The notes beneath the pieces were generated by a model, which ran no database searches, had not been told where the DNA came from, and worked only from the letters and a program-made list of their open reading frames with translations. From contig JAQTXC010000009.1 of assembly GCA_028689015.1 (NCBI GenBank), forward strand, positions 1 to 64,000: a stretch of 64,000 nt of DNA, given 5' to 3'. Origin of the DNA: Dechloromonas sp. (GTDB lineage Bacteria > Pseudomonadota > Gammaproteobacteria > Burkholderiales > Rhodocyclaceae). Below, in pieces: positions 3,291-59,367 of the stretch (position 1 is its first letter; the number at the start of each line of letters is the position of its first letter). Made by a program: the position numbers and the translations under genes.

Positions 3291-3503
3291 ATGCTCGCTC
3301 AGGCCGTCGACCGCAAGCGTTGCGCCAGTTGCCAACGCTGGCGCGGTCCACGTCAGGCCGCACCGCCAGAGCATATCTTGATTGAAAGTGAAACCGTCAC
3401 CGGCCTATGCGACGGTGGCGGCTGGCACCAGGATGAACGCCGCGCCCGCTCAGCCTGCGGCCATTGGCAATGCTGGGACGTTTTGCAGCCGGCAGCGGAT
3501 TGA
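3291..3503 (+). CDS. Small cysteine-rich hypothetical protein
   Basis: A 70-residue open frame starting 8 bases after the thioesterase stop, so probably co-transcribed with it. I do not recognise a named family. It has C11 and C14 in a CxxC pair, then C40, C56 and C61, with H46 and H58. The RWRGPR and SACGHWQCW segments look like a conserved small metal-binding or redox protein rather than random sequence. The ribosome site is weak and the preceding bases are A-rich. It could instead be a chance frame, but its composition (Trp, Cys, His placed around Gly) argues for a real gene. Confidence 0.5.
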   Translation: MLAQAVDRKRCASCQRWRGPRQAAPPEHILIESETVTGLCDGGGWHQDERRARSACGHWQCWDVLQPAAD

Positions 3504-3522: not shown

Positions 3523-3540
3523 TTGGCACCTTTATTGCTG
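3523..3540 (+). promoter_or_regulatory. Sigma-54 (-24/-12) promoter upstream of the Nif11-type gene
   Basis: The sequence TTGGCACC-TTTA-TTGCTG matches the RpoN consensus YTGGCACG-N4-TTGCW at nearly every position. The invariant GG (3525-3526) and GC (3537-3538) are exactly 10 bases apart. Transcription would start near 3550 and read into the small gene at 3726, leaving a leader of about 175 bases. I looked upstream for a NifA site (TGT-N10-ACA) and found none between 3300 and 3520, so the partner activator is unknown. Confidence 0.7.
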
Positions 3541-3549
3541 TAAGCCTGC

Positions 3550-3575
3550 AACACCTGGCATCCAGCCGGTGTTTT
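3550..3575 (+). terminator. Hairpin followed by T residues, possible weak terminator or 5' stem-loop
   Basis: AACACC (3550-3555) pairs with GGTGTT (3568-3573), and an inner TGG/CCA extends the stem; TT follows. It could end the thioesterase/Cys-rich transcript. Because it begins just where the sigma-54 promoter should start transcription, it could also be a protective 5' stem-loop on the Nif11-type mRNA. Confidence 0.4.
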
Positions 3576-3725
3576 GTCATCAATCCAACAGCCAGGCCAA
3601 GCCGACTTCGTCGCTTTCCGAACTTTTTTACCAGCGACAGCGCTAGCACCCTCCCGCGTCGACTCGTCGGCGAGTGACCTAGCCTGAGGTCCAAGCTACC
3701 CCAAACCACATCCGCAGGAGAACCC

Positions 3726-3944
3726 ATGTCCATCGTTCCAATCAAGGCTTTTTCCGACAAGGCCCGCAATGACGCCGCGCTCGGTGAGCAACTCAAAGCC
3801 TGCGTCAAAATCAAGGAATTGCGCGCCCTGGCCCAGGAACACGGGTTCACGATCGAGGAAAACTCGCTCTACCCGCCCAACGAACCGCAATTTACCGAGG
3901 AACAGTTATCCGAGCGCCTGGCTAAAGCCCTATTGCGCGTTTGA
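3726..3944 (+). CDS. Nif11-domain small protein
   Basis: A 72-residue protein that fits the Nif11 domain pattern over most of its length: KAF near the start, then nDxxLxxqLk, then LAqehGFtieE. Nif11 domains occur in nitrogen-fixation loci and as leaders of ribosomally made natural products. Here there is no Gly-Gly cleavage site and no Cys/Ser/Thr-rich core after the domain, so a free-standing Nif11 protein is likelier than a peptide precursor. The start has a strong AGGAG site. A sigma-54 promoter lies about 190 bases upstream, which suits nitrogen control, and a strong terminator follows. No nif, lanthionine or transporter genes are nearby. The molecular role is unknown. Confidence 0.72.
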   Translation: MSIVPIKAFSDKARNDAALGEQLKACVKIKELRALAQEHGFTIEENSLYPPNEPQFTEEQLSERLAKALLRV

Positions 3945-4011
3945 AAAGCACGGCATCAAGGCTTTTTTCCGCCAAACGGGGGAATACGCTTCTCAGCGAA
4001 GCCATAAGACG

Positions 4012-4041
4012 AATAAGGCCGGGATCGCTCCCGGCCTTATT
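4012..4041. terminator. Strong bidirectional terminator between the Nif11-type gene and ppsA
   Basis: A perfect 13-base-pair stem (AATAAGGCCGGGA, loop TCGC, then the exact complement) with A and T runs built into both ends. It can end transcription in both directions: the Nif11-type gene on the plus strand and ppsA on the minus strand. Confidence 0.9.
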
Positions 4042-4053
4042 CATTTATGAGCA

Positions 4054-4077
4054 ATTTTCACGGTCGACCGTGAAAAT
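4054..4077. repeat. 24-bp perfect palindrome centred on GGTCGACC at the ppsA stop
   Basis: A gap-free 24-base palindrome whose right end overlaps the last base of the ppsA stop codon. As RNA it folds to a 10-bp stem with a UCGA tetraloop. It lies 12 bases from the bidirectional terminator, making a tandem hairpin at the end of ppsA. Its core GGTCGACC is the word over-represented across this window. Confidence 0.75.
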
Positions 4078-6452
4078 CAGTCCTTTTTGTGCGTCGCCAG
4101 ACGGGTCCAGGTATCGATCACCGTATCCGGGTTCAGCGAGATGCTGTTGATGCCCTGATCCATCAGCCACTCAGCCAGATCCGGGTGATCGGACGGGCCT
4201 TGGCCGCAAATGCCAACGTACTTGCCGGCCTTGTTGGCGGCAGAGATCGCCATCGCCAGCAGCATCTTGACGGCCGGGTCGCGCTCGTCAAACAGGTTGG
4301 CGACCAGACCGGAGTCGCGGTCGAGGCCAAGCGTCAGTTGGGTCAGGTCGTTGGAGCCAATCGAGAAGCCGTCGAAGATCTTCAGGAAGTCGTCGGCCAA
4401 CAGGGCGTTGGACGGGATTTCGCACATCATGATCAGCTTCAGGTCGTGCTCGCCCTGCTTCAGGCCGTGTTCAGCCAGCAGATCAACGACCGCCTGGCCT
4501 TCACCGACGGTACGCACAAACGGCACCATCAATTGCACGTTGGTCAGGCCCATTTCTTCACGGACGCGCTTCATGGCGCGGCATTCCATTTCGAAACAGT
4601 CGCGGAAAGACTGGGCAACGTAACGCGAGGCGCCACGGAAGCCGAGCATCGGGTTTTCTTCTTCCGGCTCGTACAGGTCGCCGCCCAAGAGCTTGCGGTA
4701 CTCGTTGGACTTGAAGTCGGACAGGCGGACGATAACCGGGTTCGGCCAGAAGGCGGCGGCGATGGTCGACACACCTTCCACCAACTTCTCAACGAAGAAG
4801 TCCTTCGGCGACGCATAGCCACGGGCGCGGCGCTTGATTTCCTCGCGCTTCGAAGCCGGCAGGCGCTCGACATCAAGGATGGCCTTCGGGTGGATGCCGA
4901 TGACGTTGTTGATGATGAACTCAACGCGCGCCAGACCCACACCGGCATTCGGCAACTGAGCAAACTCAAAGGCCAGTTCCGGATTGCCGACGTTCATCAT
5001 GACTTTGACCGGCACGTCCGGCATGGCCGAGATATCGCGGGTGGTAATTTCGAAATCGAGGCTGCCGCGATACACGTGGCCGGTATCGCCTTCGGTACAG
5101 GACACCGTCACGATGTCGCCTTCGCTCAGGGTTTCGGTGGCATCACCGCAACCGACGATGGCGGGAATGCCGAGTTCGCGGGCGATGATCGCCGCATGGC
5201 AGGTACGACCACCGCGGTTGGTGACGATGGCCGAAGCGCGCTTCATCACCGGTTCCCAGTTCGGGTCAGTCATGTCGGCGACGAGGACGTCACCCGGCTT
5301 GACCTGATCCATCTCACGCGGGTCCTTGACGATGCGCACCGGGCCGACACCGATCTTCTGACCGATGGCGCGGCCGGAAGCGAGCACCTTGGAGAAGGAC
5401 TTCAGCTTGAACTTTTCCTGCTTGCCGGCAGCCGCCTGCGACTGCACGGTTTCCGGACGGGCTTGCAGAATGTACAGCTTGCCGTCAACGCCATCCTTGC
5501 CCCACTCGATGTCCATCGGACGACCGTAGTGCTTTTCGATGATCTGGGCGTAGCGGGCCAGTTCCATGACTTCTTCGTCATTGATCGAGAACTGGTGACG
5601 CAGGGACTCTTCGACTTCTTCGGTAATCGTGGACTTGCCAGCAACCTTCTCGGCAGCGAAGGTCATCTTGATCATCTTGGAACCGAGGTTACGGCGCACG
5701 ACGGCCTTCTTGCCAGCTTCCAGCATGGGCTTGTGCACGTAGAACTCATCCGGATTGACCGCGCCCTGCACCACAGTTTCACCCAGGCCATAGCTGGAGG
5801 TGACGAAGACGGCATCGCGGAATCCGGATTCGGTATCGAGCGTAAACATCACGCCGGCCGCGCCCTTGTCGGAGCGCACCATGCGCTGAATACCGGCCGA
5901 CAGCGCCACGTCGGCGTGCAGGAAGCCTTTATGAACACGGTAGGAAATGGCGCGGTCGTTGTACAGGGAAGCAAACACTTCCTTGATCGCGTGCATGATG
6001 TTTTCCAGGCCGACGATATTGAGGAAAGTTTCCTGTTGACCGGCGAAGGAGGCATCCGGCAAGTCTTCGGCCGTGGCGGAAGAACGCACAGCGAAGGACA
6101 TGTCGGCGGTGGAATCCGCCACCAGACGCTGGTACTGCTCGGTGATGGCGATGGTCAGATCCATCGGGAACGGGGTGTCGAGCACCCATTGGCGAATTTC
6201 GGCACCGGTCTTGACCAGGGCATTGACGTCTTCAACATCCAGCGCGTCGAGCGCAGCGTTGATCTTGGCGTCGAGGCCGGATTGGGCGAGGAAGACGCGG
6301 TAGGCGTGGGCCGTGGTGGCGAAACCGCCCGGCACACGAACGCCGGTGTCGGCCAGTTGCGAAATCATTTCACCAAGCGATGAATTTTTGCCGCCAACTT
6401 GCTCGACGTCGTTCATGCGCAGTTTTTCGAAGGGGATGACCAATGCTTCCAT
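4077..6452 (-). CDS. ppsA: Phosphoenolpyruvate synthase (pyruvate, water dikinase)
   Basis: A 791-residue cytoplasmic enzyme that converts pyruvate and ATP to PEP, AMP and phosphate, the entry to gluconeogenesis from lactate or pyruvate. The order is the family's: an N-terminal ATP-binding domain ([10 protein letters not shown] near the start), the swivelling phospho-His domain with [20 protein letters not shown], and a C-terminal PEP/pyruvate TIM barrel with GFRGASRYV and the terminal CGQGPSDHP motif. Length is as in E. coli. The start has AAAGGA 8 bases upstream. It lies 38 bases after the LldR-type regulator on the same strand, so the two may be co-transcribed. Its regulator PpsR is encoded at 16544. 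Confidence 0.97.
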
Positions 6453-33346: not shown

Positions 33347-34147
33347 ATGAGCATCACTATCAAGACGCCGGAAGAAATCGAAAAAATGCGTATCGCCGGC
33401 CGTCTCGCCGCCGAAGTGCTCGACTACATCGAACCCTTTGTCACCGCCGGCACCACGACTGAAACCCTCGACAAGCTGTGCCACGACTACATGGTCGACG
33501 TCCAGGGCTGCATTCCGGCCCCGCTCAATTACGCGCCGTCCGGCTACAACCCCTACCCGAAATCGATCTGTGCCTCGATCAATCAGCAGGTCTGTCACGG
33601 TGTTCCCAACGACCGCGCCTTGAAGCTTGGTGACATCGTCAATCTGGACATCACCACCATCAAGGACGGCTATCACGGCGACACCAGCCGCATGTTCATC
33701 GTCGGCGAAGGATCGATCCAGGCCCGACGTCTGTGCGACATCACCTTCGAATGCCTGTGGCTGGGCATTTCGGTGGTCAAAGCGGGGGCCCGACTGGGCG
33801 ATATCGGCGCCATCATCCAGAAACACGCCGAAAAAAACGGCTACTCGGTGGTGCGCGAATTCTGCGGTCACGGCATCGGTCAGAAATTTCACGAAGACCC
33901 GCAAGTCCTGCATTACGGCAAGGCGGGCACCGGCATCGTGCTCGAAGCCGGGATGATGTTCACCATCGAGCCGATGATCAATGCTGGCAAGGCGGCGATC
34001 CGCGAAATGGCCGATGGCTGGACCATTGCCACCAAGGACCGCAGTCTGTCGGCGCAATGGGAACACACCCTCCTGGTCACTGAAACCGGCTATGAAGTGA
34101 TGACACTGTCCGCCGGCTGCCGCCCGAAACCAGACTGGATCGCCTGA
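33347..34147 (+). CDS. map: Methionine aminopeptidase, type I
   Basis: A 266-residue metalloenzyme that removes the initiator methionine from new proteins. The five metal ligands lie in [15 protein letters not shown], the [12 protein letters not shown] segment, MFTIEPM and the late [11 protein letters not shown] chose the ATG at 33347; an earlier frame start adds 28 Pro/Arg-rich residues with no family match. The ribosome site is weak (CCCCCGCAG). It overlaps the glnD start by one base, so the two are probably co-transcribed, and it diverges from rfbD. Confidence 0.95.
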
Positions 34148-36705
34148 TGCCCATCGATATCGCCGCCCTGCGGGCAGAAGTCAAAGCGGGTCACGCCCAA
34201 CGGCGGGCCGATTACGAACACGACAACGATGCAGCGGCGATCCTGCGGGGACGCTGTGCCCAGGTCGATGACATCTTGCAGCGCCTGTGGTCAGCGCAGG
34301 ATTTTCCGGCCTCGATGACCCTGGCAGCGGTTGGCGGCTACGGCCGCGGCGAACTCTACCCCTATTCCGACATCGACCTGCTGATTCTCTTGCCACGGGC
34401 ACCCAGCGCCGCTACACAGCGCAAGCTGGAAGAACTGGTCAGCCACTTCTGGGACATTGGCCTGGAAATCGGCCACAGCGTGCGCACCATTCAGGAATGC
34501 CTGGACGAAGCAGCCAACGACATCACGGTACAGACCGCACTGGTCGAGGCCCGCCATCTCGCCGGCTGCGACCGCCTGTTCGCCACCTTCCGCAAACGCC
34601 TGCAGGGCAATCTGGACCCGCTGCAATTCCATCGCGCCAAGCGCCTGGAACAGCAGGAGCGTTACCTGCGTTTCAACGAAACCCCGTTCAGCCTCGAACC
34701 CAACTGCAAGGAATCCCCGGGTGGCCTGCGGGATCTGCAGGTCATCTTCTGGGTTGCACGGGCCGCCGGCTATGGCCAGCAATGGGACGAACTGGGCGAC
34801 AACAACATCATGATTGCCGAAGGCGTCGCCTTCGGTAAGCAGTTCGACGACTACCTGCAACACCTGCGCATTCGTCTGCATTTCATCGCCGGCCGGCGTG
34901 AAGACCGCCTGCTCTTCGACTATCAAGGCGCCCTGGCCGAGCGCTATGGCTTCGTCGCCCAGGCCGGCAAACGCGCCTCCGAACAACTGATGCAGGCTTA
35001 TTACCGCAACGCCAAGGGCGTCACCCTGCTCAACACCATCGTCATGCAGAACATGGGTGCGGCCCTCGCCCCGGAAAACGAGAAAATCCCCCAAGCCTAC
35101 GACGATCATTTTCAGATTGTTGGCAATCTGCTCGACATCAGCGACGATCACCTGTTCGAGCACACCCCCCACAAGATTTTTGACGCTTTTCTGGTCATGC
35201 AGGAAAACCCCGAACTGCAGGGCATGACGGCACGCACGCTGCGCGCCCTGTGGTTGGCTCGTGACAGCATCACGCCGGATTTCCGCACTGACGCGGTCAA
35301 CAAAGCCAATTTCCTGAAATTGCTGCAGAGCGAGCGCGGTATTGTTCATGAATTCCGGCGCATGAACCATCTCGACATCCTCGGCGCCTATCTGCCCAAC
35401 TTCGGTCGCATCGTCGGCCAGATGCAGCACGACCTATTTCACGTTTACACGGTCGACCAGCACATCCTGCAAGTTTTGCGCAATTTGCGGCGCTTCTCGA
35501 TGAGCGAGTTTGCCCACGAATACCCGCTTTGCTCGCGCGTCATCAACCAACTGGACCGCCCCTGGCTACTCTACATCGCCGCCTTGTTCCATGACATCGC
35601 CAAAGGGCGCGGCGGCGATCATTCCGAACTGGGCACGGTCGACGCCCGAGAATTTTGCGAAACCCATGGGTTGACCGCAGACGACACCGAACTGGTCGTC
35701 TGGCTGGTCCGCAACCATCTGGTGATGTCGCAAGTCGCGCAGAAGGAAGACCTCACCGACCCCAGCGTCATCGGCCGTTTTGCCGAGCGGGTCGGTGATG
35801 CCCGGCACCTGCAGGCCCTGTATTTGCTCACCCATGCCGATATTCGTGGCACCAGCCCGAAAGTCTGGAACCAGTGGAAAGGCAAACTGCTGGCTGATTT
35901 GTATTACCAGACCCTGCACTATCTGGGACAAGACGAAAACCCCGTTGCCCACGGCATCATCGCCGAACGTCAGGCCGAAGCGATGCGTCTGCTACGTTTC
36001 TTCGCCCTCTCCGACACCGTGCACGAGCGCTTGTGGAAACAGCTCGATACCGTCTATTTCCTGCGCCACTCGGCGGAAGAAATCGCTTGGCACACCCGCG
36101 CCCTGCACTACCGCATCTTCAACAACCAGCCCGTGGTCCGCGCCCGCTTGTGGCAGGAAGGCGCCGGCCTGCAGGTCATGGTGTACACCCAGGATCAGCC
36201 CGACCTGTTCGCCCGCATCGTCGGCTTTTTTGCCCGGGCTGGCTACAGCATCGTTGATGCCAAGATTCACACCACCGAACACGGCTACGCCCTGGACAGC
36301 TTTGTCGTCCTCGACGTCGACAAACGCGACGATCCCCGCCAGATGCTCAATTATGTCGAGCATGAACTGGAGCAGCGCCTGCTGCACAAGGCCGCCATCG
36401 AAGCCCCGGCAACGGGCCGGCTATCGCGCCAGGTCAAGCATTTTCCGATCAAGCCGGAAGTCAGCATTCGCGGCGATGAAAAGGGTACACATTTCATCCT
36501 GTCGCTGACCGCTGCCGACCGTCCTGGCCTGCTCTACATGGTGGCCAATGCCCTCACCGCCCATGGCGCCAGTCTGCACACCGCCAAGATTGCAACGCTG
36601 GGCGAGCGGGCCGAAGACGTTTTCCTGATCAGTGGTGGCGACCTGCGCGACACCGGCAAACGGATTCGCCTCGAAACCGAGTTGATTGAGCGCCTGAAAA
36701 TCTGA
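34147..36705 (+). CDS. glnD: Bifunctional uridylyltransferase/uridylyl-removing enzyme
   Basis: An 852-residue nitrogen sensor that adds UMP to PII proteins when glutamine is low and removes it when glutamine is high. The nucleotidyltransferase core [19 protein letters not shown] carries Asp75 and Asp77. An HD domain follows ([17 protein letters not shown] near residue 480), and two C-terminal ACT domains bind glutamine ([19 protein letters not shown] and [19 protein letters not shown]). All four functional regions look intact. It governs the NtrB/NtrC and NifA cascade in related bacteria, which bears on the sigma-54 promoter found at 3523. Confidence 0.97.
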
Positions 36706-59290: not shown

Positions 59291-59367
59291 TGGGGCGACT
59301 GATGGGGCTCGAACCCACGACAACCGGAATCACAATCCGGGACTCTACCAACTGAGCTACAGCCGCC
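59291..59367 (-). tRNA. tRNA-His (anticodon GTG)
   Basis: A 77-base tRNA on the minus strand. It shows an 8-base-pair acceptor stem including G-1 paired to C73 (the tRNA-His mark), AGCTCAGTTGGTAGAG in the D arm, anticodon GTG in TTGTGAT, GGTTCGAGCC in the T arm, and an encoded CCA end. Conserved T and D arm bases are all present. Confidence 0.97.

Follow-up and report, generated by a model that had tools for sequence, protein, structure and literature searches.

The window considered here is a stretch of 64,000 nucleotides from a Dechloromonas sp. contig, and at its center of interest is a small nif11 gene. The gene encodes a stand-alone Nif11-type protein and is preceded by a sigma-54 promoter element, a TGT-N10-ACA site of the NifA type and the remains of a DUF6156 gene. 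A short cysteine-rich open reading frame lies immediately before the promoter, and a strong hairpin separates nif11 from a convergent gene (Table 1). The TGT-N10-ACA site, which the initial annotation overlooked, is the most unusual part of the locus.

Table 1. Features of the nif11 locus, in window coordinates.
Feature	Position	Strand	Remarks
70-aa Cys-rich ORF directly before the promoter	3291-3503	+	no Pfam or NCBIfam match
sigma-54 -24/-12 promoter element, TGGCACCTTTATTGCT	3524-3539	+	zero mismatches; -24/-12 conserved in relatives
predicted transcription start	3550	+	placed 12 nt beyond the C of the -12 GC; inferred
possible hairpin at the predicted 5' end of the transcript, followed by a short T-run	3550-3573	+	-11.4 kcal/mol, z -2.35
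NifA-type site TGT-N10-ACA, past the promoter at about +26 to +41	3575-3590	+	offset 51 nt from the start of the -24 box
DUF6156 gene remnant (residues 10-26), then a stop codon	3624-3674	+	10/17 identical, E 0.028
stand-alone Nif11 protein, 72 aa	3726-3944	+	PF07862 E 6e-13; subfamily alignment A3, 53 sequences
probable terminator, a strong hairpin in the gap from nif11 to the convergent ppsA	4011-4042	+	z -6.5
ppsA, phosphoenolpyruvate synthase	4077-6452	-	NCBIfam

The search with the Nif11 model PF07862 that the initial annotation had proposed gave a match over residues 1-44 (E 6e-13, 49.3 bits, cut-off 23.8), which confirms a 72-residue Nif11-type protein in the next plus-strand gene after the promoter; TIGR03798 is matched over residues 1-61 at 39.6 bits (cut-off 32.3). 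In the genome from which the window comes (2.87 Mb, 86 contigs; G000) this is the only Nif11 match. For comparison we assembled a subfamily set of 81 loci, comprising the window and the best 80 of 233 relatives found by a contig scan. The source organisms of these best 80 include Azonexus, Dechloromonas, Zoogloea, Azoarcus, Sideroxydans, Marinobacterium, Oceanobacter, Pseudomonas and Methylomonas, among others. A second sample, here called the family sample, consists of 150 genomes of the same family.

The promoter element has GG-N10-GC spacing and is the sole zero-mismatch match to TGGCACN5TTGCW in the 64 kb, where matches with up to two mismatches stand at chance level (40 versus 42.5 expected). 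The near-perfect RpoN element, with ten bases from GG to GC, that had been described earlier therefore stands, and so does the conservation in relatives that was to be looked for: in 76 of the 81 loci the 500 nt before the gene hold a GG-N10-GC site with a score of 8 of 11 or more, and in 67 the score is at least 9, while the mean best score over 50 letter shuffles ranged from 1.3 to 7.1 depending on the locus. Within the family sample, nine of the 11 members of the subfamily reach a best promoter score of at least 9, the exceptions being those of G032 and G038. Judged by its sequence, the sigma-54 promoter before the window nif11 is convincing. The start in Table 1 is predicted by the rule that sigma-54 transcription begins 12 nt past the C of the -12 GC.

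The kind of control exerted on this promoter is most likely nif control through NifA, because nifH, nifN, nifU and nifA are all present in the genome and nif11 goes with nifH in other genomes. The nif genes lie on other contigs (nifH at 470 bits, nifA at 672 bits against a cut-off of 529, together with nifN and nifU), and none was found next to nif11 in the window among the four nearby proteins, GlnD, PpsA and a PdhR-like regulator that were scanned. In the family sample any Nif11 gene is present in 17 genomes and nifH in 59; the window subfamily accounts for 11 of these 17, and all 11 possess nifH, compared with 59 of 150 overall. The other six carry different Nif11 proteins, and three of them have no nifH. 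Among the genomes of the best 80 loci, 49 were searched and nifH was found in 45 (E <= 1e-80), over the cut-off in 43; the four with no match are those of L074, L087, L142 and L143. The counts of 11/11 and 45/49 overlap, since three shared genomes are among the 49, and the loci L079, L089, L098, L119 and L134 correspond to the family-sample genomes G062, G133, G115, G130 and G038, respectively. Thus of the nitrogen-controlled unit put forward by the initial annotation, the sigma-54 promoter is retained and the control is more probably that of the nif system than general nitrogen control. General control by way of glnD was rejected, as nothing supports it: the gene does lie about 30 kb away in the window as reported (34147-36705), but it is unlinked to nif11 and does not count as evidence.

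In Bradyrhizobium DOA9, a Nif11-domain gene with a -24/-12 box is lower in rpoN mutants (PMC13207237), which independently supports the view that Nif11 genes can be RpoN-dependent. Hypothetical genes under both RpoN and NifA are mentioned for Azoarcus BH72 (PMC3916325), and a Nif11-like gene is listed for the nif region of Pseudomonas stutzeri A1501 (PMC11332353). From its sequence context, the window gene is likely a stand-alone Nif11 gene of the nif regulon.

TGT-N10-ACA is the motif of the NifA site, known as the upstream activator sequence of nif promoters (PMC6066989). Such promoters resemble the present one in the -24/-12 element and the site motif, and the nif11 gene tracks nifH. The difference is in the place of the site, which lies upstream in nif11 orthologues, mostly gamma-proteobacterial, and at the genome's own nifH, nifN and nifU; at the window-type loci it is found in the leader, 49-52 nt past the first base of the -24 box and at near-fixed spacing. 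We classified all 81 loci from promoter candidates scoring at least 8 within 600 nt, the downstream class requiring an exact TGT-N10-ACA between 40 and 60 nt past the candidate. By these rules the site is upstream in 31 loci, 58-165 nt before the -24 box, and downstream in 34 including the window, while 16 follow neither rule; the upstream assignments are mechanical, and L136 was placed there by a promoter candidate some 509 nt away from its gene. Offsets from the start of the -24 box in the downstream class are 51 nt in 26 loci, 50 in five, 52 in two and 49 in one. No further TGT-N10-ACA occurs from -250 to +150 in the 34 downstream loci, the 250 nt before the -24 box of the window hold none, and there is none at +49 to +52 in the 31 upstream loci.

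The TGT and ACA bases are invariant by construction, as the class was chosen by them, and the conservation has to be read from bases outside the selection. In the 32 distinct elements these are T at -3 (30), A at 7 (27), C at 11 (30) and G at 12 (31). In the spacer between promoter and site, the first 12 columns hold less than 0.4 bit each and the remainder, up to the T-run, 0.01-0.93 bit. The NifA-site consensus is asymmetric, TGT-N4-T-N5-ACA. Of 26 distinct downstream sites 21 have A at position 8, and of 30 upstream ones 18 have T at position 7, and because of this bias the asymmetric consensus tends to face the promoter in both classes.

The downstream site could in principle serve a second promoter placed after it. 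There is no room for another -24/-12 element and start, however, as the ATG of nif11 follows 9 nt past the site in L076 and that of DUF6156 4-5 nt past it in L068, L071, L072, L074 and L087. A promoter-like site on the minus strand scoring at least 9 and lying within 250 nt to the left of the TGT-N10-ACA site is found in one of the 34 loci. As a separate observation, the same five loci show no visible Shine-Dalgarno sequence for the DUF6156 start codon.

Elsewhere in the genome the site lies upstream, at -114 for nifH, -72 for the nifU operon and -59 for nifN, and a fourth promoter-like match also has an upstream site (L157, -51), among the 30 of 72 promoter-like matches that were looked at. 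The downstream arrangement looks specific to nif11. A composite pattern, TGGCNCN5TTGC-N33-38-TGT-N10-ACA, was run on 23 chosen genomes with a backward pattern as control, and gave one match each in 14 of them, 13 being nif11 promoters, against two for the backward pattern; the remaining match is in a genome of the same genus with neither nifH nor a Nif11 match (G147). The nine genomes with no match are explained in part by the strictness of the pattern, which demands TGGCNC. In the window's genome, the looser TTGC-N34-38-TGT-N10-ACA occurs nine times and is accompanied by GG in two, the nif11 promoter and a position on contig C13; the latter, just after a tRNA-like sequence and with a poor -24 box, was taken as chance.

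On a tree of nif11 coding sequences the upstream and downstream states are separated by one change when the 16 loci of neither kind are left uncounted, and the downstream label needs three changes when these are counted as a third state. The downstream loci form one branch of 36 rows, together with L075 and L084, with a support of 82; the tree is built on 216 bases, and 29 of its 77 forks are open. Four of the 16 unassigned loci (L075, L110, L115 and L143) lack any promoter candidate that qualifies within the 600 nt, and L075 appears to sit behind unrelated coding sequence. L084 has the same downstream site behind a -24/-12 element of GG-N9-GC, one base short, which may be a weakened or a tolerated promoter. 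All four loci titled Azoarcus fall in this group by the exact rule, and in the Azoarcus-type ones of eight family-sample genomes read by eye (G115 and G130 included) a half-site-like sequence alone is seen upstream, so that a full site may not be needed.

At the level of sequence, the evidence for a relocated TGT-N10-ACA site is strong. Our preferred reading, to which we give a probability of roughly 0.65, is that the window holds a nif-regulon gene for a stand-alone Nif11 protein, transcribed by sigma-54 polymerase with NifA acting from the downstream site. In Azonexus, Dechloromonas, Zoogloea and their kin the NifA site would then fall within the transcribed leader, from about +26 to +41 and at a near-fixed distance from the promoter. 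The upstream place, which the gamma-proteobacterial orthologues have, is probably the ancestral one. In the textbook view, bacterial enhancer-binding proteins are loop-forming activators that work from upstream, and NifA usually activates through a DNA loop from about 100 bp upstream. Bound in the leader, NifA would instead meet the polymerase on the promoter at its front edge, and would remodel it directly or by way of a very short DNA bend.

A further step can be offered only tentatively. If NifA contacts the polymerase from the front with no DNA loop, each round of transcription would displace it, because the polymerase has to get past both a terminator-like 5' hairpin and the activator on its site; this might make a self-limiting nif promoter, which would have arisen when the enhancer moved once, in the Azonexus-Zoogloea lineage. 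The nearest parallel is FleQ of Pseudomonas aeruginosa, for which Jyot et al. reportedly described atypical downstream enhancers in 2002 (cited in PMC10723142). The two cases are alike in having the site of an enhancer-binding protein downstream of the RpoN site, and differ in that FleQ regulates flagella and biofilm. Among the titles listed by searches of open-licence PubMed Central, none concerned a NifA site that lies downstream of its promoter. The natural switch from upstream to downstream, with orthologues of both kinds, provides a promoter pair on which front-side activation could be tested.

The alternative that survives best, although we consider it rather unlikely, is that NifA or another enhancer-binding protein such as NtrC acts through degenerate upstream sites, and that the downstream TGT-N10-ACA is, for example, a repressor operator or part of a leader RNA. 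The Azoarcus-type orthologues lend it some weight, having a -24/-12 element, no exact site and half-site-like upstream sequence by eye, and upstream half-sites may likewise be present in the downstream class where the exact rule does not recognize them. A leader site bound by an activator could also act as a brake, and the rigid spacing could reflect an RNA constraint instead. Against this, orthologues elsewhere carry the same type of motif in the classic position upstream, the tree needs a single swap between the two states (the unassigned loci being uncounted), and neither class keeps an exact copy at the other's place, as counted above within 250 nt upstream and at +49 to +52. As for a leader RNA, the TGTC/GACA stem that it would form is broken at the fourth pair in L091-L096 and L120 (TGTG...GACA), where TGT and ACA are kept, though these bases were selected for.

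Activation from the downstream site must also be set beside an improbable alternative, in which the 5' hairpin and T-run are a terminator or attenuator, so that the sigma-54 promoter would yield mostly a very short RNA with conditional read-through to nif11. The hairpin in the window does begin at the predicted start, and a T-run of at least three precedes the site in 26 of the 32 distinct elements. Class-wide support for the stem is mixed: its mean length in the downstream class is 6.25 pairs, above the mean of 5.53 and the maximum of 6.09 in 500 re-dealt controls, but stems of at least five pairs, present in 25 of 32, stay within the control range (mean 24, maximum 29). Several loci, such as L067, L080, L082 and L106, have a weak stem or none, and a hairpin at the 5' end may simply stabilize the mRNA. 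For this mixed support we treat a 5' hairpin in the downstream class, as read from sequence, as possible. Behind nif11, the 3940-4050 region folds at -48.3 kcal/mol (z -6.5), and none of 200 shuffles folds as well. The strong terminator claimed there by the initial annotation is thus upheld as a strong hairpin at about 4011-4042, and qualified in that a simple terminator scan does not list it.

Turning to the protein, its subfamily is uniform. The length is 72 residues in 79 of 81 members (one has 71 and one 141), Cys26 is present in all 81, and the C-terminus is conserved, with the tail LYPPNEPQFTEDQLSERL..ALLRV and YPPN within it. Databases give such proteins the automatic TIGR03798 name "Nif11-like leader peptide family RiPP precursor", under which the gene would encode the leader of a ribosomal peptide natural product; in favor, TIGR03798 is matched by each of the 53 aligned members at E <= 0.001, the curated cut-off being seen passed for the window protein, and the closest solved structure by sequence, 9zn4 (E 0.0006), is titled a Nif11 RiPP leader. 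We reject this identity as highly improbable, for Gly-Gly is absent from residues 46-72 in all 81 members, the length is fixed and the C-terminus is conserved where a core would vary, and no LANC_like match, the one RiPP enzyme searched for, occurs in the whole genome. It is the lack of Gly-Gly that makes the name look wrong for the 72-residue subfamily, and it bears out, for the window protein, the earlier description of a Nif11 protein with no cleavage site or core.

Nif11-type precursors (N11P) have a cleavage motif and a core according to Haft et al. (2010; PMC2887384). The likeness to the PF07862 and TIGR03798 leaders lies in a homologous Nif11 domain over residues 1-44, with the model match reaching residue 61, and the subfamily differs from the N11P leaders in having neither Gly-Gly motif nor core, in its fixed length and conserved tail, and in its sigma-54 promoter and association with nifH. 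An AlphaFold2 model of the window protein has a mean pLDDT of 73, and Foldseek with this model gave no significant match (best E 5.9, with a Nif11 RiPP leader second at E 8.1). Most likely the protein would be a small helical partner or adaptor in nitrogen-fixing cells. A subfamily named as a RiPP leader in databases would then belong, as seems likely, to the nitrogen-fixation regulon of many beta- and gamma-proteobacteria.

The initial annotation also spoke of a single-gene unit, which is a secondary state here, as in 27 of the 34 window-type loci a DUF6156 (PF19653) match separates the promoter from nif11. The match covers at least 85 residues in 26 of these and 62 in L095. The DUF6156 gene would thus be an ordinary part of most downstream-type loci, one that has decayed in the window. 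Six of the downstream loci have no DUF6156 match and the window has a remnant only, of 17 codons, with no PF19653 match in its genome; seven loci in this way retain promoter, downstream site and nif11 with no DUF6156 gene. Loss of the gene is shown for the window, where the remnant makes part of the 175-nt leader a decayed gene, and is supposed for the other six. DUF6156 also keeps company with nifH, which is present in all 14 family-sample genomes that have it (G133 is among the genomes with PF19653), and it is rare at large, occurring in seven of 369 genomes of a class-wide sample. In two gamma-proteobacterial loci, L108 and L113, DUF6156 is divergent from nif11, so that the two genes are linked in two layouts. 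A search of open-licence PubMed Central found no paper naming DUF6156. The leader as a whole (3551-3725) folds in an ordinary manner (z -1.05) and contains no Rfam family, the sole match at gathering scores in the window being a tRNA at 59294-59366.

Two minor observations concern other small proteins. The 70-residue open reading frame before the promoter begins 8 nt after a hotdog thioesterase gene and shows a C-x2-C...C...C pattern. By tblastn it has relatives in L065, L055, L057, L054 and L053, within about 1.3 kb of DUF6156 genes and downstream of them, and four of these five could be aligned at 31-39% identity. Their closeness to DUF6156 genes in five loci suggests, on this sequence comparison, a third nif-linked small protein. 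Separately, a second type of Nif11 protein, with the pattern MSV[DE]SA..YI.., is present at L017, L018 and L025, in three nifH-bearing genomes of the same family, and it lies within 10 kb of nifH.
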